A stretch of 36,127 nucleotides of DNA from an uncultured Alsobacter sp. (GTDB lineage Bacteria > Pseudomonadota > Alphaproteobacteria > Rhizobiales > Beijerinckiaceae): assembly GCF_945952055.1 (NCBI RefSeq), contig NZ_CAMFHB010000055.1, forward strand, positions 1 through 36,127, given 5' to 3'. Position 1 is the stretch's first letter, and each line of letters starts with the position of its first letter. A model generated the notes under the pieces. That model was not told the DNA's origin. It searched no databases and saw nothing but the letters and a program-made list of their open reading frames with translations. Both the position numbers and the translations under genes were made by a program. Positions 2,369 to 26,005 of this stretch are shown in pieces.

Positions 2369-4264
2369 CTACAAGCTCGGGATGTCGAGCGGCCGCGCCA
2401 GCCGCGCCTGTGCGGCAAGCCTGATCGCCGCGTTGGGGGCGCCGTAGCCGGCATAGCCGTCGCGCTGCACGAACTCGAAGAAGAAGCCGCCCTCCAGCGT
2501 CGTCGAGTAGGCCTGCAGGAAGGTGCCGTTGTCGTCGCGGTCGTAGAGGATGCCGAGCTCGCGGAACGTGTCGATCGTCTCCGGGGCGAGGTCCACCCGG
2601 GCCTCGAGGTCGTCGTAGTAGTTGTCCGGGATCGGCAGCATCTCCATCCCGGCGGCCTTCATGCTGCGCACGGCCGCCACGAGATCGCGCGCCGCCAGCG
2701 CAATGTGCTGGACGCCCGAGCCGAAGAACTCGGACAGGAAGCGGGACGACAGCGTGCGATGGCTCTGCGACCCGTTGAGCACGAGGCGCAGCCCGTGGCC
2801 CGGGCTGCCGAGCGCGGACTCGATGACCTGGCTCTGCACCACGCCGCCCGGATCGATGACCGCCTGGGACGGCGTCTTCCGGGCGTCGAAGATCGACGTG
2901 TAGAAGAGGAGCCAGGTCAGCATCTCCTCGTACTGCATCGACTGCGAAACGTGGTCGACGTGGTCGATGCCGAGCCCTGGCACCGCCTCGCCGGTGGGCT
3001 CGAAGTCCACCTCGGACCAGCGCCCCAGCGGCGACGCGTCGTCGACGAAATAGAGCAGGCTTCCGCCGAGCCCCCGCACCGCGGGAATGTCGAGTTCGCC
3101 CGGCCCGACGGCGCCGGCGTGCGGCTTGTCGAGCAGCGCCGTGGCGCGCGACAGCGTGGCCGACGCATCCGGCACCTTGAGCGCCATGGCGCACACCGAG
3201 GTGCCGTGCGTGATGTTGTAGCTGTGGGCGAAGCCTTCCTTGTCGCTGTTGAGCACGATGCGGACCGCGCCCTGGCTCCACAACGACACGTCCTTGGAGC
3301 GATGGCGCCCGGTGCAGCCAAAGCCCATCGCCCGCAGCAAAGCCTCGAACGAGGCGCGCTCGCCCTCGTCGACGGCGAACTCGGTGAACTCGACCCCCTG
3401 CACGGGCGCACGGGATGGCAGGGGCGGGACGCCGGCGATCCGCCGGCCGGTGCGGACCGAGGCGTCGTCGATCATGGTCAGCAGCGACCGCCGGCCGTCC
3501 ACGGCCACGGCGCGGGCCGATCCGGCCCGGAAGCGGTCGTTGAAGATCTCGAGCGACAGCACGCCGTCGTAGCCCGTCGCCGCCAGCGCATCCATGAAAC
3601 CGGCGAGATCCAGCTCGCCCTGCCCGGGCATGCAGCGCCAGTGCCGGCTCCAGGAGAGATGATCCATCTGCAGCTTCGGCGCATCGGCGAGCTGCACCAG
3701 CACGATCTTGTCCTTCGGGATCGTGGCGATGGTGGAGAGGTCGATGCCGCGCGACAGCACGTGGAAGCTGTCGAGAATGAGGCCCACCGCGGGGTGCCCG
3801 GCGCGCCGCACGATCTCCCAGCTGTCACGGTAGTCGTTGACGAAGCGGCCCCAGGCCAGCGCCTCGTAGCCGACCCGCAGGCCGCGGTGCGCGGCGCGTT
3901 CGCCGAGCTCCCGGAAGTCGGCCGCCAGCCGGTCGATGCCCCCCTGCGCCTCGGGCGAGACGCTGCTGCACACGAAGAGGAGGTCGGTGCCCAGCTCCTG
4001 CAGCAGGTCGAACTTGCGCTCGGCCCGATCGAAGGTGCGCTGGCGCCTCGCATCCGGCATGCCCTCGAAATCGCGGAAGGGCTGGAGGGTGCAGATGGTC
4101 AGGCCGAGGTCCGCGCACATCCGCCTCACGTCGGCGGGCGAGCCCGGAAAGGCGATGAGGTCGTTCTCGAAGATCTCGACGTCGGTAAAGCCTGCCGCCG
4201 CGATGGCCTCGAGCTTTTCCTGGAGGCCGCCGGACAGGCAAACCGTGGCAATGGCCGGCTTCAT
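2369..4264 (-). CDS. quiC: Two-domain 3-dehydroshikimate dehydratase (QuiC-like)
   Basis: A 631-residue protein with two parts. Residues 1 to about 270 form an AP-endonuclease/xylose-isomerase-type TIM barrel; residues about 290-631 resemble 4-hydroxyphenylpyruvate dioxygenase. This architecture and length match QuiC-type dehydratases, which convert 3-dehydroshikimate to protocatechuate in quinate/shikimate catabolism. Expected metal ligands of the barrel are present: E134, D165, Q191 and E239, with H168 and H202 nearby. In the C-terminal part a His-His-Glu set (H435 or H438, H520, E598) is retained. I prefer the ATG at 4264 (MKPAIATVCL) to the one at 4276 because GGAG lies about eight bases upstream. 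It is the last gene of the HAAT operon, 78 bases after livF. Function is well supported by architecture; dual dioxygenase activity is not claimed. Confidence 0.88.
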   Translation of the reverse strand: MKPAIATVCLSGGLQEKLEAIAAAGFTDVEIFENDLIAFPGSPADVRRMCADLGLTICTLQPFRDFEGMPDARRQRTFDRAERKFDLLQELGTDLLFVCSSVSPEAQGGIDRLAADFRELGERAAHRGLRVGYEALAWGRFVNDYRDSWEIVRRAGHPAVGLILDSFHVLSRGIDLSTIATIPKDKIVLVQLADAPKLQMDHLSWSRHWRCMPGQGELDLAGFMDALAATGYDGVLSLEIFNDRFRAGSARAVAVDGRRSLLTMIDDASVRTGRRIAGVPPLPSRAPVQGVEFTEFAVDEGERASFEALLRAMGFGCTGRHRSKDVSLWSQGAVRIVLNSDKEGFAHSYNITHGTSVCAMALKVPDASATLSRATALLDKPHAGAVGPGELDIPAVRGLGGSLLYFVDDASPLGRWSEVDFEPTGEAVPGLGIDHVDHVSQSMQYEEMLTWLLFYTSIFDARKTPSQAVIDPGGVVQSQVIESALGSPGHGLRLVLNGSQSHRTLSSRFLSEFFGSGVQHIALAARDLVAAVRSMKAAGMEMLPIPDNYYDDLEARVDLAPETIDTFRELGILYDRDDNGTFLQAYSTTLEGGFFFEFVQRDGYAGYGAPNAAIRLAAQARLARPLDIPSL

Positions 4265-4342
4265 CGTCGTCTCCATCGCTGCGCCGAAGGGCGCGGTACG
4301 CGTCAGTCTACCATGCGAGTGTCGTGCCGGGAGCGTGGTCGG

Positions 4343-5083
4343 TCAGGCGTGCGACATCGCCCCGCCCAGGAACAACTGCCCGACCTGCGGGTCGTTCAGG
4401 ATGTCCTGCGCCGGGCCGTGCATGCGGGTCTGCCCGAGCTCGAGCACGATCGCCTCGTCCGAGATCTGCAAAGCCGACTTGGCGTTCTGCTCGACCATGA
4501 GGATGGTGACGCCGCGGGCCCGGAGGTCCTTCAGGATCGAGAAGGTCTCCTGGACGAGGATGGGCGACAGGCCGATCGACGGCTCGTCGATCAGGATCAG
4601 CTTGGGATCGAGCAGAAGCCCGCGGGCGATCTCGAGCTGTTTCTGCTCGCCGCCCGACAGCGTCGACGCCTGCTGCCGCGACTTCGCCTTCAGGGCCGGG
4701 AAACGCGACAGCGCGGCCTCGATGCGCTGCGGCATGTCGGTGACGTTGGCGCCGGCCGCCACGGTGCCGAGCTCGAGATTGTGCATCACCGAGAGCTCGG
4801 GAAAGATGTTGCGGCCCTGCGGCACGTAGATGACCCCGGCCTCCAGAAGGCGGCGCGGCGCCCAGTTGGTGATGTCCGTCCCGTCGAGCCGGATCGAGCC
4901 GGAACGGACGTTCAGGATGCCGAAGATGGCCTTGAAGACCGTCGACTTGCCGGCTCCGTTGGGGCCGATGACGGTGGTGATGGCGGCCCGCTTCACCGCG
5001 AAGGTGGTGCCGTTGAGGATGGTCATCTGGCCGTAGCCGCCGACCACGCAGTCGAGTTCGAGGATGGCGGGGGTCGCGGCCAT
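4343..5083 (-). CDS. livF: HAAT-type ABC transporter ATPase, LivF-like
   Basis: A 246-residue cytoplasmic ATPase of the branched-chain amino acid type importers. Walker A is GPNGAGKST (40-48), the signature is LSGGEQKQ, Walker B is LILIDEPS, and the switch region reads MVEQNAKSAL, which is typical of LivF rather than LivG. The ATG at 5083 lies two bases after the livG stop; a longer upstream frame exists but reads through livG and has no family resemblance. It pairs with LivG (5086-5829) to energise the LivH/LivM permease encoded further upstream in the same operon. Substrate is inferred from neighbours (shikimate-, quinate- or aromatic-acid-like), not from this protein. Confidence 0.92.
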   Translation of the reverse strand: MAATPAILELDCVVGGYGQMTILNGTTFAVKRAAITTVIGPNGAGKSTVFKAIFGILNVRSGSIRLDGTDITNWAPRRLLEAGVIYVPQGRNIFPELSVMHNLELGTVAAGANVTDMPQRIEAALSRFPALKAKSRQQASTLSGGEQKQLEIARGLLLDPKLILIDEPSIGLSPILVQETFSILKDLRARGVTILMVEQNAKSALQISDEAIVLELGQTRMHGPAQDILNDPQVGQLFLGGAMSHA

Positions 5084-5085
5084 GG

Positions 5086-5829
5086 TCAGCCTCCGAGATA
5101 GGCGTCGATGACGGCCTGGTTGGCCCGGACCTCGGCCGGGGTGCCCTGGGCCAGGACCTTGCCCTGTGCCAGCACGACGACCCGCGAGCACAGCTCCATG
5201 ACGAATTCCATGTTGTGTTCGATGACCACGAAGGTGGCGCCGGTCTCGGCGTTCATCGCCTTCAGCCGATCCTTGAGATCGGCGAGCATGGTCAGGTTCA
5301 CGCCGCCCGCCGGCTCGTCGAGGAGCACCAGCCGCGGGCCGGCCATGAAGGCCATGGCGGCGTCGAGCAGCTTCTGCTGGCCGTAGGACAGCCCGCCCGC
5401 CTTGGCGTCGGCGAGATGGCCCAGCCGGAAGAAGCCGATCATCTTGTCAGCCGCCGCGCCGAGGCCGGCATCGCGCGGGCCGAACAGCCGCGACATCATG
5501 GAGCCGTGATGCTCCTGGCCGGCGAGGATGAGGTTCTCGCGGACGGTGAGTTCGGGGAACACCTGCAGCAGCTGGAAGGTGCGCCCGACACCCAGCCGGT
5601 TCAGCTGCTGCGGCGGCATGCCGGTGATGTCGCGCCCGTCGAGCTTCACGGTGCCGGCCGTCGGCACGAGCTGGCCGAGAATGCAGTTGAAGAGGGTCGA
5701 CTTGCCGCAGCCGTTCGGCCCGATGATGCCGAGGATCTCGCCCTCGGCGACGGAGAACGACACCTCGTCGACGGCGGTGATGCCGCCGAAGGTCTTGCGC
5801 AGTCCGCTCACCTCGAGGACGGAGGCCAT
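5086..5829 (-). CDS. livG: HAAT-type ABC transporter ATPase, LivG-like
   Basis: A 247-residue ATPase with Walker A GPNGCGKST (37-45), signature LSYGQQKLL, Walker B LVLLDEPAGG and the LivG-type switch VIEHNMEFV. The LivG family usually has the signature LSYGxQR(R/K) and the H-loop EHD/EHN seen here. The start is the ATG at 5829, after a 28-base gap from the short-chain dehydrogenase stop. Together with LivF it forms the ATPase pair of the importer. The gene is separated from its permease genes by three enzyme genes, an unusual order for a liv cluster. Confidence 0.92.
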   Translation of the reverse strand: MASVLEVSGLRKTFGGITAVDEVSFSVAEGEILGIIGPNGCGKSTLFNCILGQLVPTAGTVKLDGRDITGMPPQQLNRLGVGRTFQLLQVFPELTVRENLILAGQEHHGSMMSRLFGPRDAGLGAAADKMIGFFRLGHLADAKAGGLSYGQQKLLDAAMAFMAGPRLVLLDEPAGGVNLTMLADLKDRLKAMNAETGATFVVIEHNMEFVMELCSRVVVLAQGKVLAQGTPAEVRANQAVIDAYLGG

Positions 5830-5857: not shown

Positions 5858-6628
5858 TCACATGGTTCCGGTCATGCCGCCGTCGACGACGATCTGCTGG
5901 CCGGTGATGTAGTCGCCGGCCCGCGACGCCAGCATCAGCGCGACGCCGGCGACCTCGTCCGGCTTGCCCCAGCGCTTGAGCGCCGTGCGCGTCACCACGC
6001 GCTCCACGAAGGCGGGATCCGCCAGCATGGCCTTGTTCAGGTCGGTCTCGAAATAGCCGGGCGCGATGGAATTCGACGTGATGCCGAACGACCCGAGCTC
6101 CGCCGCCAGCGAACGCGCCAGGCCGGCGAGCCCGCTCTTCGACGCCACATAGGCGTGGATGGTGGCCCGGCCCATGATGCCGGTGATCGACGAGGTGAAG
6201 ATGAGCTTGCCCGAGCCCTGCCGCTTCATGTGCGAGGCGGCGGCCTCGGCGAGGAACAGGGCCGAACGCAGGTTGGTGTTCAGCACCGTGTCCCAGGCCT
6301 GCGCCGTCCATTCGCCGAGCGGCGCGCGGTGCGCCTGGCCGGCATTGGCGATCAGCACGTCGAGCCGGCCATGATCGCCGGCGACCTTGTCCACCGCCGC
6401 CCGTCCGGCCTCCGGGTCGGCGACGTCGAACGCGATGGTGCCGCAGCGGATGCGAGCCGCCGCGAGGGTGGCCGCGCTCCGCGCCAGCGTATCCTCCGAG
6501 CGCCCCGTGATGACCAGCGTCGCGCCGGCCTCGCCCAGCGCCCGGGCCATGTGGAAGCCGAGGCCACGGGAGCCGCCGGTGACCAGCGCCACCTTGCCCG
6601 TCATGTCGAAGAGCGCGGGGGTGCTCAT
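5858..6628 (-). CDS. Short-chain dehydrogenase/reductase (gluconate 5-dehydrogenase-like)
   Basis: A 256-residue classical SDR. The cofactor motif TGGSRGLG is at 17-24, NAG at 95-97, and the catalytic set N119, S147, Y160 and K164 is complete. The opening (FDMTGKVALVTGGSRGLG) and the C-terminus (ITGQQIVVDGGMTGTM) resemble gluconate 5-dehydrogenase/IdnO-type enzymes. ATG at 6628 overlaps the stop of the shikimate dehydrogenase gene as ATGA, indicating translational coupling. In this operon it may oxidise a cyclic polyol or an acid of the quinate/shikimate series; that is inference. It is not a QuiA-type PQQ quinate dehydrogenase. Substrate assignment from sequence alone is unsafe for SDRs. Confidence 0.85.
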   Translation of the reverse strand: MSTPALFDMTGKVALVTGGSRGLGFHMARALGEAGATLVITGRSEDTLARSAATLAAARIRCGTIAFDVADPEAGRAAVDKVAGDHGRLDVLIANAGQAHRAPLGEWTAQAWDTVLNTNLRSALFLAEAAASHMKRQGSGKLIFTSSITGIMGRATIHAYVASKSGLAGLARSLAAELGSFGITSNSIAPGYFETDLNKAMLADPAFVERVVTRTALKRWGKPDEVAGVALMLASRAGDYITGQQIVVDGGMTGTM

Positions 6629-7473
6629 GCCGGGATCGACGCCTCGATCATGGCCCGCAGCTCCGGCGTGACCTCCGGCAGGACGCCGAACCACGACTGG
6701 AACGCGGGACGCGCCTGGTTGAGCAGCATGCCGAGCCCGTTGACGGTGCGGTTGCCGCGCTTGCGCGCCGCCGCCAGCAGGTCCGTTTCCTTGGGGATGT
6801 AGACGATGTCGGAGACCACGGCCTGCGTCGGCAGGCGGTCGAGCGCGATCTCGAGGGGCGGCTGGCCGTGCATGCCGAGGCTGGTCGTGTTGACGAGCAT
6901 GGCCGCACCATCGAGCGCCTCGGCGCGCTGCGCCCAGTCGTGCACCACGACCGGCGCGCCGTAGTCCCGCGCGATTCCCTCGGCCTTGTCGCGCGAACGG
7001 TTGATCAGCCGGATCTCGGGCGCGCCCGCGTCGGCCAGCGCGGCCACCACCGCCCGGGCGCCGCCGCCGGCGCCCAGCACCACGATCGGGCCCGCATCGG
7101 CCCGCCAGTCGGCGAAGCGCTCGCGGACGCTCTCCAGATAGCCGAAGCCGTCGTTGTTGGTGCCGTGCAGGGAGCCGTCCTTCTGGACGGTGACGCAGTT
7201 GATCGCGCCGATCCGCACCGCCATCGGATCGATGGTGGCCATCGCCTCCATCGCGGCGATCTTGTGCGGCACGGTGATGTTGCAGCCCGCGAAGCCGAGC
7301 GCCGGCAGCGCGCGCAACGCGGCGAGCAGGCCGTCGGGCTGGATCGCCAGCGGCACGTAGGTGCCGAGCAGCCCGTGCTTCTCGAACCAGTAATTGTGCA
7401 GCTTGGGCGAGCGGGAGTGCATGACGGGATACCCCATCACGCCGGCGAGCAGAAAGCGGTCCTGCGAGGCCAT
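6625..7473 (-). CDS. aroE: Shikimate/quinate dehydrogenase family protein (AroE-like)
   Basis: A 282-residue NAD(P)-dependent dehydrogenase of the AroE family, interconverting shikimate (or quinate) and the 3-dehydro acid. Visible family residues: HSRSP (S20, S22 contact the substrate carboxylate), NITVPHK (catalytic K71), TNNDGFG (D108), GAGGGAR (134-140) for the dinucleotide, NRS (158-160), and Q253 in LLNQA. The usual N-T-D motif reads N-N-D here, a small deviation next to the catalytic Asp. ATG at 7473 follows the GlcG-like gene by 31 bases. Being in a catabolic operon with a dehydroshikimate dehydratase, it probably works in the oxidative direction, feeding 3-dehydroshikimate forward. 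I cannot decide between shikimate and quinate preference. Confidence 0.9.
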   Translation of the reverse strand: MASQDRFLLAGVMGYPVMHSRSPKLHNYWFEKHGLLGTYVPLAIQPDGLLAALRALPALGFAGCNITVPHKIAAMEAMATIDPMAVRIGAINCVTVQKDGSLHGTNNDGFGYLESVRERFADWRADAGPIVVLGAGGGARAVVAALADAGAPEIRLINRSRDKAEGIARDYGAPVVVHDWAQRAEALDGAAMLVNTTSLGMHGQPPLEIALDRLPTQAVVSDIVYIPKETDLLAAARKRGNRTVNGLGMLLNQARPAFQSWFGVLPEVTPELRAMIEASIPA

Positions 7474-7504: not shown

Positions 7505-7939
7505 TCAGGCCGCCGCGCGCTGGGATTGCATGATGGCGGCGATGCCGATGGCCGACAGTTCCTCGTCCTCGGTGTCGCTGAGGCCGCTGACCGCCACCGC
7601 GCCGACGACCTGGCCGTCGACCACGACGGGCAGCCCGCCGCCCCAGCCCACATAGCGGGGATCGCCGTAATAGGCGATGTCGAAGGCGGTGTCGGGATGG
7701 CGCGAGCGCTTGCCCGTCTCGCCGGAGGGTCGCCGCAGGCGAGCGGCGGAATAGGCCTTGTTGGCCGCCACGTTGACCGAGCTCAACGGCGCCCCGTTCA
7801 TGCGCAGGAGCGCGATCGTCTCGCCATGGGCGTCCACCACCGCGATGACGCCCGTCTTGCCGCGGGCCTTGAGGGCGGCGCAGATCGCATCGATGGCGAT
7901 GCGGGCATCCGTGTCGCAGAGGGATGTCTCGACATGCAT
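7505..7939 (-). CDS. GlcG/HbpS family protein (DUF336)
   Basis: A 144-residue protein with family features: GVIAVVDAHGETIALLRMNGAP (30-51), then NKAYSAA, and the glycine-rich end GGLPVVVDGQVVGAVAVSG (101-119). The family includes HbpS, a haem-binding sensor accessory protein, and GlcG of glycolate operons; most members, often found in catabolic clusters, have no established activity. The ATG at 7939 follows the livM stop by eight bases, so it is co-transcribed. No signal peptide is visible; it is probably cytoplasmic. Role here is unknown: perhaps a small-molecule or cofactor-binding accessory. Confidence 0.82.
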   Translation of the reverse strand: MHVETSLCDTDARIAIDAICAALKARGKTGVIAVVDAHGETIALLRMNGAPLSSVNVAANKAYSAARLRRPSGETGKRSRHPDTAFDIAYYGDPRYVGWGGGLPVVVDGQVVGAVAVSGLSDTEDEELSAIGIAAIMQSQRAAA

Positions 7940-7947: not shown

Positions 7948-8949
7948 TCACGCGGATGGCTTGGCGGCCGTGCCGCCGGCCGGCTGGTCGGGGCGGCGAA
8001 CGGGCGCCGGCTTGAACAGCCGGTCGCGCAGGATGACGAAGCCACCGACGATGCCCTTCGGGCAGAAGATCATCAGGACCACGACCATCGCGGCGTAGAT
8101 CAGCAGGTAGTAGCCCTGCGTGAAGCGCAGCCACTCCGGCAGCAGCAGGTCGATCATGGCACCGAAGAAGGGCCCCATGAAATGCCCGGCCCCGCCCACG
8201 AGCACCATCAGCAGGAGCTTCAGCGAGTAGGTGAGCTGGAAGGAGTTGGGCTCGATGAACTGCACCAGCGGGGCGTAGAGGGCCCCCGCAAAGCCGCCGA
8301 AGGAGGATCCGATGGCGAAGGCCATGAGCGTGTAGCGGCGCACGTCGACCCCGAGCGAGGCGGCGCGCAGCGGGTTCTCGCGCAGCGCCACGAAGGCGCG
8401 GCCCCAGGGGGAGCGCAGGATCCACCACTGGACGAAGGTGAACAGGGCGAGCATCACGAGCGCGAAGTAGTAGAAGCTCACGTTGCGGCCGGTGGCGACG
8501 CCCAGGATCGTGGGGCGCCGGATGTCGTTGATGCCGTAGATGCCGTTCGTCAGCCATTGCTCGTTGCGCAAGAGCAGGAACACCAGCGTCGTGAAGGCGA
8601 GCGTGACGAAGGCCAGGAAGTGGTGCTGCACGCGCAAGGCCGGATAGCCGAGGCACCAGCCCACGGCGAAGGTCAGCGCCCCCGCCCCGAGGAAGGCCAG
8701 CGGATAGGGCAACCCCGCATTGGTGGTCAGCGCCGTGAAGTAGGCGCCGAGCCCGACGAAGGCGCCCTGGGCCAGCGAAATCTGGCCGGCATAGCCGAGC
8801 GTCAGGTTGAGACCCAGCGCGGCGATGGTCGTCACCGCCCACAGCGCCAGCAGGTAGACGCCGTAGCTGCGCAGGACCATGGGGGCGTAGAGCAGCGCCG
8901 CGACGGCGATGGCGGCCGCCACCCAGGCGAGGATCCGCGGCGTGCTCAT
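7948..8949 (-). CDS. livM: HAAT-type ABC permease, LivM-like
   Basis: A 333-residue inner-membrane permease. It has many hydrophobic segments and the LivM hallmarks LNLTLGYAGQISLAQGAFVGLGAY and, near the C-terminus, GGAGHFMGPFFGA. The start ATG at 8949 overlaps the livH stop as ATGA. A much longer upstream frame exists but reads through livH in another frame. It forms a heterodimeric channel with LivH. The C-terminus is basic and extended (RRPDQPAGGTAAKPSA), and likely cytoplasmic. Confidence 0.92.
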   Translation of the reverse strand: MSTPRILAWVAAAIAVAALLYAPMVLRSYGVYLLALWAVTTIAALGLNLTLGYAGQISLAQGAFVGLGAYFTALTTNAGLPYPLAFLGAGALTFAVGWCLGYPALRVQHHFLAFVTLAFTTLVFLLLRNEQWLTNGIYGINDIRRPTILGVATGRNVSFYYFALVMLALFTFVQWWILRSPWGRAFVALRENPLRAASLGVDVRRYTLMAFAIGSSFGGFAGALYAPLVQFIEPNSFQLTYSLKLLLMVLVGGAGHFMGPFFGAMIDLLLPEWLRFTQGYYLLIYAAMVVVLMIFCPKGIVGGFVILRDRLFKPAPVRRPDQPAGGTAAKPSA

Positions 8950-12893: not shown

Positions 12894-12920
12894 CCGAGCT
12901 TCCCTCTGGCGCGCTCAATC

Positions 12921-12935: not shown

Positions 12936-12988
12936 CAATTCCGATGCCGCCGGCAGAGCGGCCCGACGCCCCCGAGGGAGGTACAGCC

Positions 12989-18004: not shown

Positions 18005-19780
18005 ATGAACGCCCTTCTCGCCCGCCCCCTGCTCGCCGCGATCGTCCTCATCGGCTTCGGCGCGATTCCGCTGCTGCCGCTGCCGGACTTCTGGATCACG
18101 CTGTGGTGCTACATCGGGCTTTCGAGCCTGGTCGCCATCGGCCTCGTGCTCCTCACCGGCGTCGGCGGCATGACCTCTTTCGGCCAGGCGGCCTTCGTCG
18201 GCATCGGCGCCTACACCTCCGCCGTGCTGACGACCCGCTACGGCCTCTCGCCCTGGCTGACGCTGCCGGCCTGCCTGCTCACCACGGGCATCACGGCGAC
18301 GCTGCTCGGCCTCGTCACCGTGCGCCTCTCCGGCCACTTCCTGCCGCTCGGCACGATCGCCTGGGGCATCAGCATCTTCTACCTGTTCGGCAACATCGAG
18401 TGGCTCGGCCGCTACGACGGCCTCTCCGGCCTGCCGCCCTTCTCGATCGCCGGCCATGCCCTCATCGACTCCCGCTCGGTCTTCTACGTGATCTGGCTCG
18501 TCGTCCTCGTCGCGGTCGTGCTCAGCGAGAACCTGCTCGACAGCCGAACCGGGCGCGCCATCCGGGCGCTGCGCGGCGGCGGCCAGGCGGCCGAATCCTT
18601 CGGCGTCGCCACGCACCGCGCCAAGCTCGTCGTCTTCGTCTATGCCGCCCTGCTCGCCGGCGTCTCGGGCTGGCTCTACGCCCACGTGCAGCGCGCCGTG
18701 AGCCCGTCGCCCTTCGGCGTGAACGCCGGCATCGAATACCTGCTGATGGCGGTGCTCGGCGGCTCGGGCCACGTGCTCGGCGGCGTCTTCGGCGCCACCG
18801 TCGTGACGATCCTCAAGGACCACCTGCAGTCGCTGCTGCCCAAGCTGATCGGCAGCGACGGCAACTTCGAGACCATCGTCTTCGGCATCCTGATGGTCGG
18901 CATCCTGCAGTTCGCCCGCCAGGGCCTGTGGCCGATGGTGCTGCGCCTGCTGCCCGCGCCGCCGCCGGTCAAGGTGGACACGTCAGCCGAGCCGCTGCCG
19001 CGCCGGCCGCTGCCCGAAGCCGGCGCGCCGCTGCTGGCCGTCGACAAGGCCCGCATGCAGTTCGGCGGACTGGTCGCGGTCAACGACGTGTCCTTCGCGC
19101 TGAAGGCCGGCGAGATCGTCGGGCTCATCGGCCCGAACGGCGCCGGCAAGAGCACCACCTTCAACCTGCTCACCGGCGTGCTGCGGCCCACCGCGGGCTC
19201 GATCAAGTTCCTCGGGCAGCAGGTGGCCGGCCTGCCGGCCCGCCTCATCGCCGGCCAGGGCGTGGCGCGGACCTTCCAGCACGTGAAGCTGGTGGGGACC
19301 ATGAGCGTGATCGAGAACGTCGCCATCGGCGCGCACCTGCGCGGCCGCGCCGGCGTCATCGCCTCGATGCTCCGCTTCGACCGCGCCGAGGAGAAGCGCA
19401 TCCTGCGCGAAGCCGCCGCGCAGCTCGAACGCGTGGGCCTGCGCGAACACCTGCACAAGCCCGCCTCCTCGCTGGCCCTCGGCCAGCAACGCGTCGTCGA
19501 GATCGCCCGCGCGCTCTGCCTCGACCCGGCGATGCTGCTGCTCGACGAGCCCGCCGCCGGCCTGCGCTTCGGCGAGAAGCAGCAGCTCGCGGCCCTGCTC
19601 TCGCAGCTGCGCGCCGAGGGCGTCAGCATCCTGCTCGTCGAGCACGACATGGACTTCGTCATGAAGCTCACCGACCACCTGGTGGTGCTCGACTTCGGCC
19701 AGAAGATTGCCGAGGGCACGCCCGCCGCGGTCAGCAAGAACCCGGCCGTGCTCGAGGCCTATCTCGGAGGCGTGACATGA
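18005..19780 (+). CDS. LivM-LivG fusion: HAAT permease joined to ATPase
   Basis: A 591-residue fusion. Residues 1 to about 318 are a LivM-type permease (LTGVGGMTSFGQAAFVGIGAY at 50-70, GGSGHVLGGVFGA at 252-264). A proline-rich linker spans about 318-342, and residues about 343-591 are a LivG-type ATPase with Walker A GPNGAGKST (376-384), signature LALGQQR (490-496), Walker B LLLDEP (511-516) and the H-loop VEHD (545-548). All catalytic motifs are intact. There is no frameshift: the frame is continuous and the linker is ordinary. The next ATPase gene starts inside its stop codon (ATGA). Such fusions occur in other alphaproteobacterial and betaproteobacterial HAAT systems; they fix one ATPase to one permease. 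Confidence 0.93.
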   Translation: MNALLARPLLAAIVLIGFGAIPLLPLPDFWITLWCYIGLSSLVAIGLVLLTGVGGMTSFGQAAFVGIGAYTSAVLTTRYGLSPWLTLPACLLTTGITATLLGLVTVRLSGHFLPLGTIAWGISIFYLFGNIEWLGRYDGLSGLPPFSIAGHALIDSRSVFYVIWLVVLVAVVLSENLLDSRTGRAIRALRGGGQAAESFGVATHRAKLVVFVYAALLAGVSGWLYAHVQRAVSPSPFGVNAGIEYLLMAVLGGSGHVLGGVFGATVVTILKDHLQSLLPKLIGSDGNFETIVFGILMVGILQFARQGLWPMVLRLLPAPPPVKVDTSAEPLPRRPLPEAGAPLLAVDKARMQFGGLVAVNDVSFALKAGEIVGLIGPNGAGKSTTFNLLTGVLRPTAGSIKFLGQQVAGLPARLIAGQGVARTFQHVKLVGTMSVIENVAIGAHLRGRAGVIASMLRFDRAEEKRILREAAAQLERVGLREHLHKPASSLALGQQRVVEIARALCLDPAMLLLDEPAAGLRFGEKQQLAALLSQLRAEGVSILLVEHDMDFVMKLTDHLVVLDFGQKIAEGTPAAVSKNPAVLEAYLGGVT

Positions 19781-20514
19781 GCGCGCCAATGCTGCGGGTG
19801 GAGAACCTGAGCGCCGGCTACGGCAAGGTCGAGGCCGTGCGCAACGCGTCGCTGGCCCTGCCGCAGGGCTCGATCGTCACGGTCATCGGCGCCAATGGGG
19901 CCGGCAAGACGACCCTGCTCAACGCGGTCATGGGCGTCATCCCGTCGCGCGGCGACGTCGTGCTGGAAGGCACGCCCGTCTCGGCGCTCGGCATCGAGGC
20001 CCGCGTCGGCCGCGGCCTGTGCCTCGTCCCCGAGAAGCGCGAACTCTTCGGCACCATGAGCGTCGAGGACAACCTTCGCCTCGGCGCCTATCGCCTCGGC
20101 GGCGGCGCCATCGCCTCCGGCCTGGAGGAGGTCTTCGGCCGCTTCCCGCGCCTGAAGGAGCGCCGCGCGCAGCTCGCCGGCACGCTGTCGGGCGGCGAGC
20201 GCCAGATGCTGGCCATGGGCCGCGCTCTCATGGCGAAGCCCCGCCTCCTGATGCTCGACGAGCCGAGCCTCGGCCTCGCACCGCGCATCGTGAAGGACAT
20301 CTTCGACATCATCGTCGGGCTGAAGGCCTCGGGCGTCTCGATCCTGCTCGTCGAGCAGAACGCACGCGCCGCGCTGCAGGTCGCAGACCACGCCTACGTC
20401 ATGGAGCTCGGCGAGATCACCCTGCAGGGTCCCGCCGCCGAACTCTCCGCCGACCCCCGGATCATCGAAAGCTATCTCGGCTTCGGCGGCCACGCCGCCG
20501 CGCCCGCCTCCTGA
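19777..20514 (+). CDS. HAAT-type ABC transporter ATPase, LivF-like
   Basis: A 245-residue ATPase. Walker A GANGAGKTT is at 38-46, the signature reads LSGGERQML, Walker B LLMLDEPS and the switch LLVEQNARAAL, all LivF-type. Its ATG (19777) overlaps the stop of the fusion gene. It supplies the second nucleotide-binding subunit of the importer. An unrelated long frame extends far upstream through the fusion gene and is not real. Confidence 0.92.
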   Translation: MSAPMLRVENLSAGYGKVEAVRNASLALPQGSIVTVIGANGAGKTTLLNAVMGVIPSRGDVVLEGTPVSALGIEARVGRGLCLVPEKRELFGTMSVEDNLRLGAYRLGGGAIASGLEEVFGRFPRLKERRAQLAGTLSGGERQMLAMGRALMAKPRLLMLDEPSLGLAPRIVKDIFDIIVGLKASGVSILLVEQNARAALQVADHAYVMELGEITLQGPAAELSADPRIIESYLGFGGHAAAPAS

Positions 20515-20526: not shown

Positions 20527-21318
20527 ATGTCCACTTTGCCCGACACGTTGCAGGCCACCCGCGACGGTGCCGTCGCGATCCTGAAGCTCGCCCGCCCGGC
20601 CAAGCGCAACGCGCTCGACGACGACACGGTGAAAGGCATCGGCCGGTTCTTCGCCGAGCTGCCCGAGGAGGTGCGCGCCGTCGTGCTGCACGGTGAGGGC
20701 CAGCACTTCTGCGCCGGCCTGGACCTCAGCGAGGTCACGGGAGCCTCGGACCTCTACAAGGGCATCCGCCACTCGCAGATGTGGCACACGGCCTTCGGCG
20801 CGATGCAGTTCGGTCCCGTGCCGGTCTTCGCCGTGCTGCACGGCGCCGTGGTCGGCGGCGGGCTCGAGCTCGCGGCCTCCACCCATGTCCGCATCGCCGA
20901 GCGCTCGGCCTACTACGCCCTGCCCGAGGGCCAGCGCGGCATCTTCCTCGGCGGCGGCGGCTCCGTGCGGATCCCCAAGCTCATCGGCCTGCCGCTGGTC
21001 CAGGACCTCATGCTGACAGGCCGCACGCTGTCGGCACAGGAGGGCCACGTCGCGGGCGCGAGCCAGTACCTCGTCGAGGACGGCGAGGGCTTGGGGAAGG
21101 CCATGGAGCTCGCCCGCAAGGCCGCTGGCAACGCGCGGATGACGAACTTCGCCATCATCAACGCCCTGCCCCAGATCGCCGAGAGCAACCCGGCGGCGGG
21201 CTTCTTCACCGAGTCGCTGATGGCGGCCATCGCCGAGACGACGCCGGAAGCCCAGCAGCGCCTGCGCGACTTCCTTGAGAAGCGCGCCGCGAAGATCACC
21301 CACACGCCCAAAGACTGA
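20527..21318 (+). CDS. Crotonase family enoyl-CoA hydratase (hydroxycinnamoyl-CoA hydratase candidate)
   Basis: A 263-residue crotonase. The oxyanion-hole regions are FCAGLDL (61-67) and HGAVVGGGLELA (105-116). Both glutamates of ordinary enoyl-CoA hydratases are present: E114 in GGGLEL and E134 in LPEGQRG. In hydroxycinnamoyl-CoA hydratase-lyases (Ech/FCHL) the first position is not Glu as far as I recall, so this enzyme looks like a hydratase rather than a classical lyase. It precedes feruloyl-CoA synthase by 28 bases; AAGGAG lies upstream of its ATG. It probably hydrates feruloyl-, caffeoyl- or coumaroyl-CoA. Whether it also cleaves to the aldehyde cannot be settled by eye. Confidence 0.82.
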   Translation: MSTLPDTLQATRDGAVAILKLARPAKRNALDDDTVKGIGRFFAELPEEVRAVVLHGEGQHFCAGLDLSEVTGASDLYKGIRHSQMWHTAFGAMQFGPVPVFAVLHGAVVGGGLELAASTHVRIAERSAYYALPEGQRGIFLGGGGSVRIPKLIGLPLVQDLMLTGRTLSAQEGHVAGASQYLVEDGEGLGKAMELARKAAGNARMTNFAIINALPQIAESNPAAGFFTESLMAAIAETTPEAQQRLRDFLEKRAAKITHTPKD

Positions 21319-21346: not shown

Positions 21347-23188
21347 ATGACCGACCACCGCGACGTCGAGATCGGCCCGCTGCCCGCGGTCCTGGAGAAG
21401 CATGCCGACGGCACCCTGCGGGTGCGCACGACGGCGCCGCTGACGCAACCGCCACGGCGCATCACCGACCACCTCGACCGCTGGGCCCGGGAAGCGCCCG
21501 ACCGGGTCTTCCTCGCCCAGCGCACGAAGGAGGGTCCCTGGCGGACGATGACCTATGCGCAGGTCCGCAAGGCCGTGCGGTCGATCGCCGGCGCGCTGCT
21601 GGCGCGCGGCCTCTCCGCCGAGCGCCCCGTCGCGATCCTCTCGGGCAACGACATCGAGCAGGCCCTGCTCGTGCTCGCCGCGATGTATGTGGGCGTGCCG
21701 GCCGCACCCGTCTCGCCGGCCTATTCGCTGATCGCGACCGACTACGACAAGCTGCGGACGATCCTCGCCCGCCTGACGCCCGGACTGATCTTCGCCAGCA
21801 GCGGCAGGGCCTTCGCCCGCGCCATCCTGGCGACCTGTGATCCGGCCATCGAGCTCGTGACGGCGGCCGGCGCCCCCGAGGGACGCAGCGTCACCGAATT
21901 CTCCACGCTCCTCGCCGGTCCCGACGGCCCCGCCGTCGACGCCGCCAATGCCACAGTGGGGCCCGACACGGTCGCCAAGATCCTGTTCACGTCCGGATCG
22001 ACGGGCCTGCCCAAGGGCGTCATCAACACGCAGCGCATGCTGTGCGCCAATCAGGAAATGCTGGCCCACTGGCTGGCCTTCGGGAAGACCGAGCCGCCGG
22101 TGCTGGTCGACTGGCTTCCCTGGCACCACACCTTCGGCGGCAACCACAATCTCGGCTTCGTGCTGCGCAACGGCGGCACGCTGTACATCGACGGGGGCAA
22201 GCCGACGCCGGCCGGCATCGACGAGACCATCCGGAACCTGCGCGAGGTCTCGCCGACGGTCTACTTCAACGTGCCCAAGGGCTACGAGGAGCTGGTGCCG
22301 CGCCTGCGGGCCGATGCCCAGTTGCGCGAGACGTTCTACAAGCGGCTCAACGTCACCTTCTACGCCGGCGCCACCCTGCCGGCCCATGTCGCCGCCGAGC
22401 TCGACGCTCTGGCGACCGAGACGCTGGGCAAGCGGGTGCTCATGATCACCAGCCTCGGCGCCACCGAGACGGCGCCGGCCTGCCTCGCCAGCACGCCCCA
22501 CAATGCGCGCGCCGGCGTCGTCGGCGTGCCCCTGCCGGGCGTGACGCTGAAGCTCATCCCCAACGACGGCAAGCTCGAGGCCCGCATGCACGGCCCGATG
22601 GTCACGCCCGGCTACTGGCGCGATCCCGAGCAGACGGCGAAGGCCTTCGACGAGGAGGGCTTCTACAAGCTCGGCGATGCGCTGCGCTTCGCCATCGACG
22701 GCGATGCCGACGGCGGCTTCGTCTTCGACGGGCGCATCTCGGAGGACTTCAAGCTGGCCACGGGCACCTGGGTGAGCGTCGGCCCGCTGCGCGCGCGCCT
22801 CATCAATGCGCTCGCCCCGTTCATCCGCGACGCGGTGATCGCCGGCCACGACCGCGACGACGTCAACGCCCTGCTCTTCCCCGAGATGGAGGCCTGCCGC
22901 GCCCTGCTGGGCCGGGATGCCGGCACCCTTTCGGACGCGGACGTTCTGGCCGCCCCGACGGTGCGCACCGCCATCGCCGAGAAGCTCGCGGCCTTCGCCA
23001 GGGAAAGCACGGGCTCGTCGAACCGCGTCACGCGTGTGATGCTGATGGCCGAGCCCGCCTCGATCGACGCCAACGAGATGACCGACAAGGGCTCGCTCAA
23101 CCAGCGCGCCGTGCTCGCCCGCCGCGCCGCCTTCGTCGACGCGCTCTACGCCTCGCCTCCCGCGCCGTCCGTCATCGCGGCGCGCTGA
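21347..23188 (+). CDS. fcs: Feruloyl-CoA synthase
   Basis: A 613-residue adenylate-forming CoA ligase. The AMP-binding P-loop ILFTSGSTGLPKG is at 212-224, DWLPWHHTFGGNHNLGFVL (255-273) and GGTLYIDGGKPTP (276-288) are strongly reminiscent of feruloyl-CoA synthases, and GATETAP follows. The C-terminal catalytic lysine region reads TDKGSLNQR. The enzyme activates ferulate, and often caffeate and p-coumarate, to CoA thioesters in the cytoplasm. The ATG at 21347 follows GGGAGGGG; an upstream in-frame start lies within the crotonase gene. Its place between crotonase and amidohydrolase genes fits a CoA-dependent hydroxycinnamate pathway. Confidence 0.92.
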   Translation: MTDHRDVEIGPLPAVLEKHADGTLRVRTTAPLTQPPRRITDHLDRWAREAPDRVFLAQRTKEGPWRTMTYAQVRKAVRSIAGALLARGLSAERPVAILSGNDIEQALLVLAAMYVGVPAAPVSPAYSLIATDYDKLRTILARLTPGLIFASSGRAFARAILATCDPAIELVTAAGAPEGRSVTEFSTLLAGPDGPAVDAANATVGPDTVAKILFTSGSTGLPKGVINTQRMLCANQEMLAHWLAFGKTEPPVLVDWLPWHHTFGGNHNLGFVLRNGGTLYIDGGKPTPAGIDETIRNLREVSPTVYFNVPKGYEELVPRLRADAQLRETFYKRLNVTFYAGATLPAHVAAELDALATETLGKRVLMITSLGATETAPACLASTPHNARAGVVGVPLPGVTLKLIPNDGKLEARMHGPMVTPGYWRDPEQTAKAFDEEGFYKLGDALRFAIDGDADGGFVFDGRISEDFKLATGTWVSVGPLRARLINALAPFIRDAVIAGHDRDDVNALLFPEMEACRALLGRDAGTLSDADVLAAPTVRTAIAEKLAAFARESTGSSNRVTRVMLMAEPASIDANEMTDKGSLNQRAVLARRAAFVDALYASPPAPSVIAAR

Positions 23189-23203: not shown

Positions 23204-24076
23204 ATGAACATCGCCGACCTCGTCGCCATCGACGTCCACACCCATGCCGAGGTGTCCTGCCGCCAGGAGCCCGATCCCGTCTGGGCGCCGTTCGACGAGG
23301 CGGCGAGCAAGTACTTCAAGGTCGGCAAGCGGCCGACCATCGCCGAGACGCTGGCCCATTACCGCGAGCAGAAGATCGGGCTCGTGATGTTCACCGTCGA
23401 CACCGAGTTCGAGATCGGCAACCGCCGCATCCCCAACGAGGAGATCGCCGACGCGGCGCGCGACAACGCCGACATCATGATCGCCTTCGCCTCGATCGAC
23501 CCGCACAAGGGCGGGCTCGGTGCGCGCGAGGCGCGGGCGCTCGTCGAGGCGGGCGTGGTGAAGGGCTTCAAGTTCCACCCGACCTGCCAGGGCTTCTTCC
23601 CCAACGACCGGATGGCCTACAAGCTCTACGAGGTGATCGCCGAGTACAAGCTGCCGGCCATCTTCCACACCGGGCACTCCGGCATCGGAACCGGCATGCG
23701 TGGCGGCGGCGGCCTCAGGCTGAAGTACTCGCAGCCCATCCACGTCGACGACGTCGCGGTCGACTTCCCGGACATGACGATCATCCTCGCCCACCCGTCC
23801 TGGCCCTGGACGGACGAGGCGCTGTCGATCGCGCTGCACAAGCCCAACGTCTACATCGACCTGTCCGGCTGGATGCCCAAGTACTTCCCGCCGCAGATCG
23901 TGCAGTACGCGAACGGCCAGCTGAAGCACAAGATGCTCTTCGGCTCCGACTTCCCCCTCATCGCCCCCGAGCGCTGGATCCGCGACTTCCATGCCGCCGG
24001 CTTCAAGCCCGAGGTGCACGACCTCATCCTCAAACAGAACGCCATCAAGGCCCTGCGGCTGGATGGGGGTGCTTGA
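23204..24076 (+). CDS. Amidohydrolase family protein (ACMSD-like metal-dependent hydrolase)
   Basis: A 290-residue amidohydrolase-2 type TIM barrel. Metal-binding features are DVHTHA (H12, H14), the HTGHSG turn, ILAHPSW, and the final catalytic Asp in FGSDFPL. A lysine/histidine in KGFKFHP may also contact the metal or substrate. Relatives act as decarboxylases, hydratases or hydrolases on aromatic acids. CAGGAG precedes the ATG at 23204, 15 bases after the fcs stop. In this operon it could remove a C2 unit or decarboxylate a side-chain-shortening intermediate, but I do not recognise a specific subgroup. Confidence 0.83.
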   Translation: MNIADLVAIDVHTHAEVSCRQEPDPVWAPFDEAASKYFKVGKRPTIAETLAHYREQKIGLVMFTVDTEFEIGNRRIPNEEIADAARDNADIMIAFASIDPHKGGLGAREARALVEAGVVKGFKFHPTCQGFFPNDRMAYKLYEVIAEYKLPAIFHTGHSGIGTGMRGGGGLRLKYSQPIHVDDVAVDFPDMTIILAHPSWPWTDEALSIALHKPNVYIDLSGWMPKYFPPQIVQYANGQLKHKMLFGSDFPLIAPERWIRDFHAAGFKPEVHDLILKQNAIKALRLDGGA

Positions 24077-24101
24077 GTTCGCAAGCCCGCCACCCCTCCA
24101 C

Positions 24102-24188: not shown

Positions 24189-24238
24189 GAGAGAGGGTGC
24201 CTGACGAGAAGACCAGGACTGCCGCCAGGATCCCGCCC

Positions 24239-26005
24239 ATGACCTACACCGCGCCCGTCGAGACCATGGCCTTTGCCCTGTCGGCCATCGCCGACCTCGA
24301 GTCCGATGCCCGGGAAGGCTGGGCCGCGGATGCGAGCGCCGACGTGGTGGACGGCATCCTCGCGGAGGCCGGCCGCTTCGCCGCCGGCCGCCTCGCGCCC
24401 CTGAACCGCGACGGCGACCGCCTCGGCGCGACACTCGCCGACGGCGTCGTCACGCAGCCGCCCGGCTGGCGCGAGGCCTACCAGGACTGGGCGCAGGGCG
24501 GCTGGAACGGCATCGACCTGCCGGCCGACTGGGGCGGCATGGGCCTGCCCACGCGGCTCGCCGCCGCCGGCATGGAGATGTGGACGAGCGCCTGCATGTC
24601 CTTCGCGCTCGGCCCCGTGCTGACGCAGGGCGCCGTCGACACGCTGGTCCTGCACGCCACGCCGGAGCTGCAGGCGCGCTACCTCCCAAAACTCGTCTCG
24701 GGCGAGTGGACCGCCACGATGAACCTCACCGAGCCGCAGGCGGGCTCGGACCTCGGCGCGCTGCGCACCCGCGCGGTGCCCGCCGGCGACGGCACCTACC
24801 GGCTCTTCGGCCAGAAGATCTTCATCACCTATGGCGAGCACTCGCTGGCCGACAACATCGTGCACCTCGTGCTGGCGCGCCTGCCCGACGCGCCTCCCGG
24901 CTCGCGCGGCATCTCGCTGTTCCTCGTGCCGAAATTCATCCCGAACTCCGACGGCTCTCCGGGCACGCGCAACGACGTCGTCTGCGCCGGCCTCGAGCAC
25001 AAGCTGGGCATCCATGCGAGCCCCACTTGCATGATGGCCTTCGGCAATGCCGAGGGCGCGGTCGGCTGGCTCGTGGGCGAGGAGAACCGCGGGCTCGCCT
25101 GCATGTTCACGATGATGAACAAGGCGCGCCTCTACACGGGACTCCAGGGCGTCGCCATCGCGGAACGCGCCACCCAGCAGGCCCTGGGCTACGCCCGCGA
25201 GCGGCGCCAGGGCCGCGCGCCCGGATCGGGCGACGCCACGGTGCCGATCATCGCCCACCCCGACGTGCGGCGGAACCTCGCCACCATGCGCGCGCTGACG
25301 AGCGCCGCCCGCGCCGTCGCCTATGCGGCGGCCTCCGCCATCGACCGCGCCCATGCCCATCCCGACCCGGCCGAGCGCGCCCGCGCCTCCGACCTCGCCG
25401 GCCTGCTGACGCCGATCACCAAGGCCTGGTGCACCGACATCGGCGTCGAGGTGACGTCGATCGGCGTGCAGGTCCACGGCGGCATGGGCTATGTCGAGGA
25501 GACGGGCGCGGCCCAGCACTTCCGCGATGCCCGCATCCCGCCGATCTACGAAGGCACCAACGGGATCCAGGCGATCGACCTCGTCACCCGCAAGGTCCTG
25601 AAGCCCGGCAGCACGGTGGCGCGCGACACGGTCGCGGGCTGGCAGGCGCTGGCGCGGGAAGCGGGCGGCGCGGGCGCATTGGCACCGACGGCCGCCCTCG
25701 TGGCCGAAGCCTGCGCGGCGCTCTGCGAGGCGACCGGCTGGATCGAGACACACGCCAACAACACCGCCGCCCTGCTCGCCTCGGCGACGCCCTATCTGCG
25801 GCTGTGGGGAACGACGGCGGGCGCCGCCGGGCTGCTCAAGGGAGCCCGGGCCGCCGAGGCGCTGCGCAAGGCTGGCGACGACCGGCCGGTGCTGTCCCAG
25901 GCCATCGACGATGCAAGGTTTTTTGCGGCCAACATGGCCGTGCTGGCGCCTTCCCTCCGCCGGATCGTCTGCACGGGATACGTGCCCGATCAGTCGGCAT
26001 TCTGA
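24239..26005 (+). CDS. Acyl-CoA dehydrogenase (large, about 590-residue class)
   Basis: A 588-residue flavoprotein dehydrogenase with the extra C-terminal domain of the long class (3-methylmercaptopropionyl-CoA dehydrogenase-like). Visible are NLTEPQAGSDLGALRT (162-177), the KIFITYGEH region (193-201), QVHGGMGYVEETGAAQHFRDARI (411-433) and the catalytic base E438 in PPIYEGTNGIQ. The start MTYTAPVETMAFAL is standard for the class; AGGA lies about nine bases upstream. An in-frame GTG at 24197 is less likely. The gene is 162 bases after the amidohydrolase gene, with a family A repeat between. It may desaturate the phenylpropanoyl-CoA side chain, for example dihydro-hydroxycinnamoyl-CoA; that is inferred from context. 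Confidence 0.9.
   Translation: MTYTAPVETMAFALSAIADLESDAREGWAADASADVVDGILAEAGRFAAGRLAPLNRDGDRLGATLADGVVTQPPGWREAYQDWAQGGWNGIDLPADWGGMGLPTRLAAAGMEMWTSACMSFALGPVLTQGAVDTLVLHATPELQARYLPKLVSGEWTATMNLTEPQAGSDLGALRTRAVPAGDGTYRLFGQKIFITYGEHSLADNIVHLVLARLPDAPPGSRGISLFLVPKFIPNSDGSPGTRNDVVCAGLEHKLGIHASPTCMMAFGNAEGAVGWLVGEENRGLACMFTMMNKARLYTGLQGVAIAERATQQALGYARERRQGRAPGSGDATVPIIAHPDVRRNLATMRALTSAARAVAYAAASAIDRAHAHPDPAERARASDLAGLLTPITKAWCTDIGVEVTSIGVQVHGGMGYVEETGAAQHFRDARIPPIYEGTNGIQAIDLVTRKVLKPGSTVARDTVAGWQALAREAGGAGALAPTAALVAEACAALCEATGWIETHANNTAALLASATPYLRLWGTTAGAAGLLKGARAAEALRKAGDDRPVLSQAIDDARFFAANMAVLAPSLRRIVCTGYVPDQSAF

Follow-up and report, generated by a model that had tools for sequence, protein, structure and literature searches.

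Background

Can one bacterial locus provide for both halves of a plant hydroxycinnamoyl ester? This question is raised by a contig of 36,127 nucleotides from an uncultured Alsobacter sp. of the Beijerinckiaceae (NZ_CAMFHB010000055.1, assembly GCF_945952055.1), henceforth the window, which is the whole of contig C55 in a genome of 6.62 Mb and 106 contigs. Between positions 2369 and 26005 an enzyme of the tannase/feruloyl-esterase family lies amid genes of a feruloyl-CoA-synthase-type pathway and genes of a shikimate-type pathway, each accompanied by an ATP-binding cassette (ABC) importer of the HAAT family. A preliminary description had proposed a possible complete system for hydroxycinnamoyl-quinate or -shikimate esters on the model of Acinetobacter, for which Smith, Weaver, Young and Ornston reportedly described in 2003 an hca-qui-pca cluster for chlorogenate catabolism. 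We investigated the locus using codon-based gene calling, Pfam and NCBIfam scans of the window genes and comparisons with other genomes (G numbers), their loci (L numbers) and contigs (C numbers).

Results and discussion

Two back-to-back putative catabolic units around a predicted secreted esterase

All the genes named in the preliminary description were recovered, including two complete HAAT importers, together with genes absent from it, namely those for a DUF3237 protein, MarR and LysR regulators, an Amidohydro_2 protein, an HbpS-like protein and a short-chain dehydrogenase/reductase (SDR) of the qui operon. The minus-strand unit runs in the order LysR, a binding protein (SBP1), livH, livM, HbpS-like, AroE, SDR, livG, livF and QuiC. 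The plus-strand unit begins with DUF3237 and the esterase and continues, past a divergent MarR gene, with a second binding protein (SBP2), livH, a livM-livG fusion, livF, crotonase, CoA ligase, amidohydrolase and acyl-CoA dehydrogenase. Since parts of this gene order recur in other genomes, it is more than a product of chance. The explanation that we favor, with a probability of about 0.7, is that each unit serves the catabolism of one half of a hydroxycinnamoyl ester from plants, an ester either of quinate or, more likely by gene content, of shikimate; chlorogenate itself may be a substrate.

In the pathway that we propose, the secreted esterase would split the ester outside the cytoplasm. 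Importer 2, going by its family and binding residues, would take up the hydroxycinnamate, which the feruloyl-CoA-synthase-type ligase would activate. The crotonase would then hydrate hydroxycinnamoyl-CoA, a dehydrogenase probably encoded elsewhere would oxidize the product, and a CouO-like amidohydrolase would cleave it to acetyl-CoA and a benzoate, which, by analogy with the Rhodococcus Cou pathway, would be protocatechuate in the case of caffeate. The acyl-CoA dehydrogenase may admit dihydro-acids. A divergently encoded MarR repressor, perhaps sensing a hydroxycinnamoyl-CoA, would control both the esterase and the cinnamate operon via a palindrome. On the other strand the LysR-controlled importer 1, AroE and QuiC would carry shikimate-type acids through 3-dehydroshikimate to protocatechuate, for which ring-cleavage genes, pcaGH, were found on another contig. 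The gene content thus supports the earlier proposal that both routes point to protocatechuate, and the search of the rest of the genome that it had suggested recovered, besides pcaGH, two copies of aroQ elsewhere.

The cinnamate operon and a hydrolytic side-chain route

Importer 2 comprises, all on the plus strand, SBP2 (15548..16699), a permease (16963..18003; PF02653), a permease-ATPase fusion (18005..19780; PF02653, PF00005 and PF12399) and an ATPase (19789..20514; PF00005). SBP2 was assigned by its likeness to solved sequences of the CouP group: seven distinct solved sequences, ferulate-bound CouP (4jb0, 324 bits) among them, match it at 295-364 bits, and none of the other 17 matches listed exceeds 49 bits. 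Its two best matches, 3sg0 and 4dqd, are not CouP. The residues reported to hydrogen-bond the CouP ligand are T102, R197, S222, Q305 and H309 (PMC3610893), and four of the five, all except Q305, are kept in SBP2. SBP1 reaches only 23-30 bits with the four members of this structure group among the matches listed for it. The earlier suggestion of one importer for each half is thus upheld as far as sequence can indicate, SBP2 grouping with CouP and importer 1 being tied by gene order to QuiC.

Downstream on the same strand lie the enoyl-CoA hydratase-type crotonase (20527..21318; NF006013, 364.7 bits, cut-off 232), the ligase (21347..23188; NF009232, 779.3 bits, cut-off 777), the amidohydrolase, a probable CouO-like aryl-beta-ketoacyl-CoA hydrolase (23204..24076; PF04909, Amidohydro_2, 143.8 bits), and the acyl-CoA dehydrogenase, probably acting on dihydro-cinnamoyl-CoA (24239..26005; PF00441, PF02771 and PF12806), which has a 61% identical homologue in the same operon in G066. 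The ligase is 45% (511 bits) and 49% identical to annotated feruloyl-CoA synthases, the former from an operon on Acinetobacter indicus pAI01 (L099). The crotonase has Glu at both of the positions that we take to be catalytic, where the annotated hydroxycinnamoyl-CoA hydratase-lyase (HCHL) of the A. indicus operon, with which it shares 24% identity, has Ser at one. The amidohydrolase is 59% identical to an annotated 4-hydroxyphenyl-beta-ketoacyl-CoA hydrolase from a Rhizobium plasmid locus, which also encodes a feruloyl-CoA synthase, an enoyl-CoA hydratase, an acyl-CoA dehydrogenase, a MarR protein, a tripartite ATP-independent periplasmic (TRAP) importer and a protein annotated as 3-hydroxy-2-methylbutyryl-CoA dehydrogenase. 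A plasmid of Alloyangia carries, in a row, genes for MarR, ligase, hydratase, SDR, TRAP importer, esterase and amidohydrolase. Directly behind the hydroxycinnamate genes of the Rhizobium plasmid we also observed a type I-C CRISPR-Cas operon (L203 15954-23949).

In Rhodococcus the final deacetylation step is attributed to CouO, a member of the amidohydrolase superfamily (PMC4737184). Given this precedent, the Glu pair of the crotonase and the beta-ketoacyl-CoA-hydrolase-type amidohydrolase, the side-chain route is most likely hydrolytic and CouO-like, rather than the lyase route of Acinetobacter hca. A candidate for the 3-hydroxyacyl-CoA dehydrogenase that a hydrolytic route calls for comes from G066: the best homologue of its enzyme in the Alsobacter genome lies at C2:81209-81967 (58%, 277 bits; next best 103). 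The SDR of the window (5858-6628) is not favored for this step because it is only about 30% identical to the SDRs of cinnamate operons, vs 56-59% to those of qui operons.

The shikimate half

Importer 1 is encoded on the minus strand by genes for a LivF-like ATPase (4343..5083; PF00005, gene call), a LivG-like ATPase (5086..5829; PF00005 and PF12399), LivM-like (7948..8949) and LivH-like (8946..9821) permeases, each with PF02653, and SBP1 (9894..11078; PF13458). Interspersed among them on this strand are the SDR (5858..6628; PF13561), the AroE-family shikimate dehydrogenase (6625..7473; NF001312, 347.8 bits, cut-off 295; 182 bits to 2egg) and the HbpS-like protein (7505..7939; PF03928). The unit ends with a QuiC-like 3-dehydroshikimate dehydratase fused to a 4-hydroxyphenylpyruvate dioxygenase (HPPD)-like domain (2369..4276; PF01261, 149.6 bits, and PF14696, 111.6 bits). 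The fusion scores 697 bits with NF042435, below the cut-off of 1200 for that model, and its nearest solved structure is 5hmq (619 bits), which has the same two domains over nearly the full length. Deposited as a 4-hydroxyphenylpyruvate dioxygenase, 5hmq is presumably QuiC1 of Pseudomonas putida; the copy in the window sits in a HAAT-AroE operon.

SBP1 has 37 homologues in 32 of 149 genomes. QuiC is present somewhere in 28 of these 32, and lies within 10 kb of an SBP1 homologue in 15 of them, the Alsobacter genome included, the distances being computed from matches located at E-value limits of 1e-60 and 1e-70. In 12 stretches fetched on account of this proximity (L215-L226) the order LysR, AroE-like, SBP1, livHMGF, QuiC recurs whole or in part. 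G032 and G070 keep the set with HbpS, AroE (66-69% identical) and the SDR (56-59%), while in G014 the module adjoins pcaGH homologues and in G005 it adjoins aroQ and a pcaG homologue. In one of these genomes, G123 (L219, C1:472001-492000), a 50% identical ligase homologue (C1:491861-493702) lies about 7 kb from QuiC, and the only esterase match is about 1.3 Mb away from this ligase-QuiC stretch.

By sequence, the gene set of the window should suffice for the conversion of shikimate to protocatechuate. Of the possible complete system proposed earlier, the shikimate route looks complete and the quinate route does not, there being no quinate dehydrogenase or dehydroquinate dehydratase among the genes found in the window. 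Genome-wide, the best match to TIGR03074, the model for the pyrroloquinoline quinone-dependent quinate dehydrogenase, is on C67 and scores 519.7 bits, below the cut-off of 832.65; NAD-type enzymes were not searched separately. Elsewhere in the genome, on C42 (L183 4641-9912), one aroQ copy has as neighbors an AroE-like gene and genes for a GntR regulator and an ABC transporter of the polar-amino-acid type, and this neighborhood is possibly a second shikimate/quinate locus.

The esterase and its DUF3237 neighbor

The esterase gene (12989..14692, plus strand; PF07519, 384.2 bits) lies within a longest open reading frame of 12944-14692, its likely start at 12989 being 3' of a GGGAGG ribosome site. 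In keeping with the earlier claim of a secreted enzyme, the N-terminus from this start resembles a signal peptide, as judged by eye and without a signal-peptide program. Also as claimed, the residues that we take to form the CS-D-HC motif of the tannase family are intact: the Cys-Ser in GCSNGGRH, the Asp in SDPVF and the His-Cys in THCGG were all found. Among solved structures the nearest are MHETases (348-360 bits); feruloyl esterases of fungi and further carboxylic ester hydrolases come next, at 80-103 bits (feruloyl esterase B, 89-103). The esterase of the A. indicus operon is about as close as MHETase (41% identity, 389 bits). In the SARSW stretch of the solved structure 8ekg, the Arg, which presumably holds the terephthalate carboxylate, is replaced by Ala in the window enzyme.

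Immediately 5' of the esterase is the gene for the DUF3237 protein (12432..12893, plus strand; PF11578, 154.5 bits), 39% identical to the DUF3237 protein of the A. indicus operon. It is of interest because PinX, which contains DUF3237, shares 42% identity with PhcG and 38% with PhcF, both decarboxylases of phenylcoumaran catabolism (PMC12607616). DUF3237 is present in 11 of the 59 genomes searched, the Alsobacter genome included; it lies 16-132 bp 3' of the esterase match in seven of the 80 esterase loci described below and 987 bp away in one more. In G004, G029 and G093 it is on a different contig from the esterase orthologue, so that the pairing is recurrent, not constant.

Gene linkage in other genomes

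We analyzed the best 80 of 210 confirmed esterase relatives in named genomes, with flanks of up to 10 kb, some of them short, counting the ligase and QuiC as neighbors at 45% identity or more over at least 400 residues and the livF of importer 1 at 55% or more. The ligase was found in 21 of these flanks, QuiC in 10, the livF of importer 1 in eight, and the amidohydrolase and importer 2 in two each. In nine loci of Bradyrhizobium type (one titled Frankia) the ligase is followed by the esterase and then, on the other strand, by QuiC and importer 1, mostly with MarR before the ligase and with other genes interspersed. In Methylocapsa the order is importer 1, AroE, carboxylesterase, GntR, QuiC, a MocA-type dehydrogenase, a second hydrolase and the esterase, the ligase being on another contig. 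In Burkholderiales the esterase is joined to the cinnamate module, with importer 2, ligase and crotonase in L163 and L168, without qui genes. Gene order ties the esterase to genes on both sides, and the shared palindrome described below only to the cinnamate genes.

An esterase tree of 90 rows was built without L108, L136 and L173 of the 80, whose translated matches contain stops. On it, at least 8 changes are required for the label 'beside cinnamate genes' vs a mean of 21.4 after shuffling; linkage to cinnamate genes is therefore clustered, yet was gained or lost several times. Two of the loci show further hydrolase genes. In L166 (10001-13123) a tandem pair of tannase-family genes (52% and 38%) stands behind crotonase and ligase, and in the Methylocapsa locus L081 (4978-16030) a carboxylesterase, an Abhydrolase_10 protein and a tannase share one stretch with QuiC and importer 1.

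Putative operators of the two halves

The MarR gene (14841..15368, minus strand; PF12802, 57.3 bits) is separated from SBP2 by a perfect palindrome, ATAGTTAT-TCAAC-ATAACTAT (15435..15455). A degenerate version with three mismatches to the full pattern lies about 50 bp before the esterase start (12918..12938, core 12921-12935). These are the only two full-pattern matches within the window, vs none expected. The core GTTAT-N5-ATAAC occurs exactly twice in the 6.62-Mb genome, 5' of the esterase and of the cinnamate operon, vs one match for a reversed-pattern control.

We scanned all 80 esterase loci with the pattern taken from the window site. In 24 of them it occurs, with up to three mismatches, in the interval from 300 bp 5' of the esterase match to 10 bp within it; elsewhere it occurs only four times in 1.554 Mb, two of these being sites in L168 and L171 between amidohydrolase and crotonase. 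The 24 comprise 14 Bradyrhizobium-type loci, eight of Devosiaceae, Methylocapsa and L139; falling in so few lineages, they are not 24 independent events. The composition of the site was compiled, for description only, from 29 chosen sites, with L129, L162, L170 and L175 of the 24 left out. In five genomes, chosen for carrying the esterase or the ligase, the esterase and the ligase/crotonase genes are on different contigs, and in three of these, G029 (Methylocapsa), G093 (Devosia) and G004, the palindrome stands at both, the ligase-side site of G004 being the imperfect one of the six. Both genome-wide cores of G093 are at its esterase and ligase genes. Over eight genomes, seven of them selected in the same way, 10 of 15 core sites are directly before esterase or cinnamate genes. 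Neither the Rhizobium nor the Alloyangia plasmid locus has a palindrome of the GTTAT-N5-ATAAC type.

On the qui side a LysR gene (11379..12275, minus strand; PF03466 and PF00126) probably encodes the regulator, and a pattern scan revealed a candidate operator, GTAAC-N5-GTTAC, 5' of SBP1 (11260..11274). Its generalized form RTAAC-N5-GTTAY, chosen after the window site had been seen, occurs in four of nine loci with a LysR homologue (the window, L220, L222 and L226) and has no matches in 71 other esterase loci, which amount to 1.385 Mb. The candidate operators of the qui half and the cinnamate half thus differ, and co-regulation seems to extend only to the esterase and the cinnamate half.

Weighing the alternatives

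Several observations weigh against the reading of the locus as a split-ester system. In the cinnamate half, Gln305 of CouP is Gly in SBP2; the 3-hydroxyacyl-CoA dehydrogenase expected for the hydrolytic route is absent from the plus-strand operon, and no other cinnamate genes were recognized around its best candidate at C2:81209-81967, the setting of which is unrelated. In the qui half, the missing quinate dehydrogenase and dehydroquinate dehydratase limit what the window can do with quinate, and no site of the GTTAT-N5-ATAAC type was found. The nearest solved relatives of the esterase are MHETases, and chlorogenate is a putative substrate for its clade. Linkage is far from universal: by the limits used, no ligase was found in the flanks of 59 of the 80 esterase loci and no QuiC in those of 70, most having neither, and three congeners have no esterase match at E<=1e-30 or ligase match at E<=1e-100. 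The operator evidence is likewise uneven, with the palindrome only at the crotonase-ligase operon in G067 and at neither gene in G081. In Devosia G093 the reversed control gives four matches vs two for the palindrome, so that the evidence there is one of position, not number. Among 15 Bradyrhizobium-type loci with a ligase the esterase site is present in 11 and absent at three mismatches in four, and their MarR/ligase promoter carries a different palindrome, ATTGTTGT-TGACG-ACAACAAT, which precedes the ligase in 13 loci and, with one mismatch, in the other two (for example, L121 4233, L123 7908, L111 4134 and L108 7167); a shared regulator is therefore not established in these bacteria. Finally, the MarR protein of the window does not align with that of Acinetobacter (20 bits), and its nearest NCBIfam family, Saro_0803 (75.7 bits, below the cut-off of 200), takes its name from a regulator that responds to resveratrol, not to p-coumarate, and controls a stilbene-degrading enzyme (PMC10046596).

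On a rival reading, two independent aromatic-acid operons stand side by side by chance. The esterase would then serve the cinnamate operon with feruloyl esters of cell walls or with methyl or sugar esters, while the qui operon would scavenge free shikimate or quinate. The different candidate operators, the scarcity of QuiC beside the esterase, the cinnamate module of G021 and G066, whose 20 kb examined contain neither esterase nor qui genes, and the qui module without the esterase in all of L215-L226 agree with this. However, the esterase lies near QuiC without cinnamate genes in Methylocapsa and between ligase and QuiC in the nine Bradyrhizobium-type loci, and in G123 the ligase homologue is itself close to QuiC; we consider independent operons unlikely. 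The nearest solved structures suggest a different view of the enzyme, in which it has no connection with hydroxycinnamates and is a gallotannin tannase or a hydrolase like MHETase or those of phthalate esters. We regard this as very improbable, as the Acinetobacter hca-type esterase is about equally close, the Arg of SARSW, which presumably binds terephthalate, is lost, an operator-like palindrome is common to esterase and cinnamate genes, and linkage to feruloyl-CoA-synthase-type genes occurs in separate esterase lineages; moreover, scans of the window genes identified no dioxygenase for gallate, phthalate or terephthalate. As for the side chain, a ligase and a crotonase of the same two families as in hca stand side by side, and the want of a dehydrogenase in the operon would be explained if a non-oxidative lyase route, with HCHL and an aldehyde dehydrogenase, were used as in Acinetobacter. 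Yet the crotonase resembles HCHL little and has Glu in place of its Ser, the operon encodes a beta-ketoacyl-CoA-hydrolase-type amidohydrolase, and family scans of the operon genes found no aldehyde dehydrogenase. The lyase route is thus not favored and has a small chance of being correct.

Comparison with known systems

The two catabolic units favored here have counterparts in several characterized systems. The operon of A. indicus pAI01, which we take to be hca, encodes MarR, an MhpT-like transporter, HCHL, aldehyde dehydrogenase, feruloyl-CoA synthase, acyl-CoA dehydrogenase, an OprD porin, DUF3237, a thioesterase and the esterase. The window shares with it the tannase-family esterase, DUF3237, feruloyl-CoA synthase, acyl-CoA dehydrogenase and a MarR-family gene, and differs in using HAAT importers rather than an MhpT-like transporter and porin, and an amidohydrolase in a hydrolytic route instead of HCHL and aldehyde dehydrogenase. 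Acinetobacter hca is presumably linked to qui genes; the window has adjacent QuiC and AroE genes, whereas the A. indicus stretch examined has none. The window also differs from Acinetobacter in that its QuiC is fused to HPPD and quiA, quiB and pca were not found in it.

With the Cou route the window has in common a CoA ligase, an enoyl-CoA hydratase with two Glu and an amidohydrolase that, judged by its 59% identical annotated homologue, is of the beta-ketoacyl-CoA hydrolase type, and the Rhodopseudomonas palustris Cou locus presumably also includes a CoA ligase. The p-coumarate locus CouPSTU/CouR of that organism has an ABC importer with a CouP-type binding protein and a MarR regulator, both shared with the window; it also has a TRAP importer, its pathway is of the non-beta-oxidation kind, and the available part of the source mentions no esterase or qui genes (PMC3610893). 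In Rhodococcus jostii, the MarR repressor CouR acts at inverted repeats whose halves are 5 bp apart, which together with the amidohydrolase-superfamily last step resembles the window, where the likeness is one of genes and repeats only; the repeat sequence differs, and no esterase or quinate/shikimate genes are mentioned in the part of the text available (PMC4737184).

The kind of system is therefore already known, from Acinetobacter hca-qui and from the Cou pathways. What look new are the two HAAT importers, the hydrolytic route, the MarR-type site tying the esterase to the cinnamate operon across contigs and the shikimate-leaning qui half. Judged by titles and abstract openings, none of the papers listed on chlorogenate and hca, tannase and quinate, or Bradyrhizobium and quinate describes the arrangement, most subscription journals lying outside this set.

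Other features of the window

A 113-nucleotide intergenic palindromic repeat is present in four copies (2223-2335, 16720-16832, 24090-24202 and 33380-33492), 61-81% identical to a reference copy, and two of the four sit inside the cinnamate operon. A second intergenic palindromic family (GTCCTTCGACTCG..CTCAGGATGAGG) is found at 12303-12431, 14701-14818 and 26915-27042; two of its copies flank the DUF3237-esterase pair and could mark the insertion of a cassette. The region 27058-36013 is an unrelated sugar-use cluster encoding an RraA-like protein, a GH31 glycosidase, a sugar ABC importer with a MalK-like ATPase and a LacI regulator.

Conclusions

The locus offers a testable gene set and a candidate operator for the use of hydroxycinnamoyl esters by plant-associated alphaproteobacteria. 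Hydroxycinnamoyl-shikimate esters are intermediates of plant lignin synthesis. On a more tentative note, which we hold to be possible rather than probable, the locus might represent a module for splitting such esters, and not chlorogenate, that is conserved among alphaproteobacteria of soil and root nodules (the window organism, Bradyrhizobium and Methylocapsa). In it, the esterase would belong to a MarR regulon that joins unlinked loci in some genomes, and DUF3237, a recurrent though not constant neighbor of the esterase, would be an enzyme of the same decarboxylase family as PhcF, PhcG and PinX, with a side product of the ester as its substrate. The results also tie the HAAT importer subfamily of SBP1 to 3-dehydroshikimate dehydratase across genera, and suggest physiological substrates for a clade of esterases whose only annotation is tannase/feruloyl esterase and which, among solved structures, stands nearest to plastic-monomer hydrolases.

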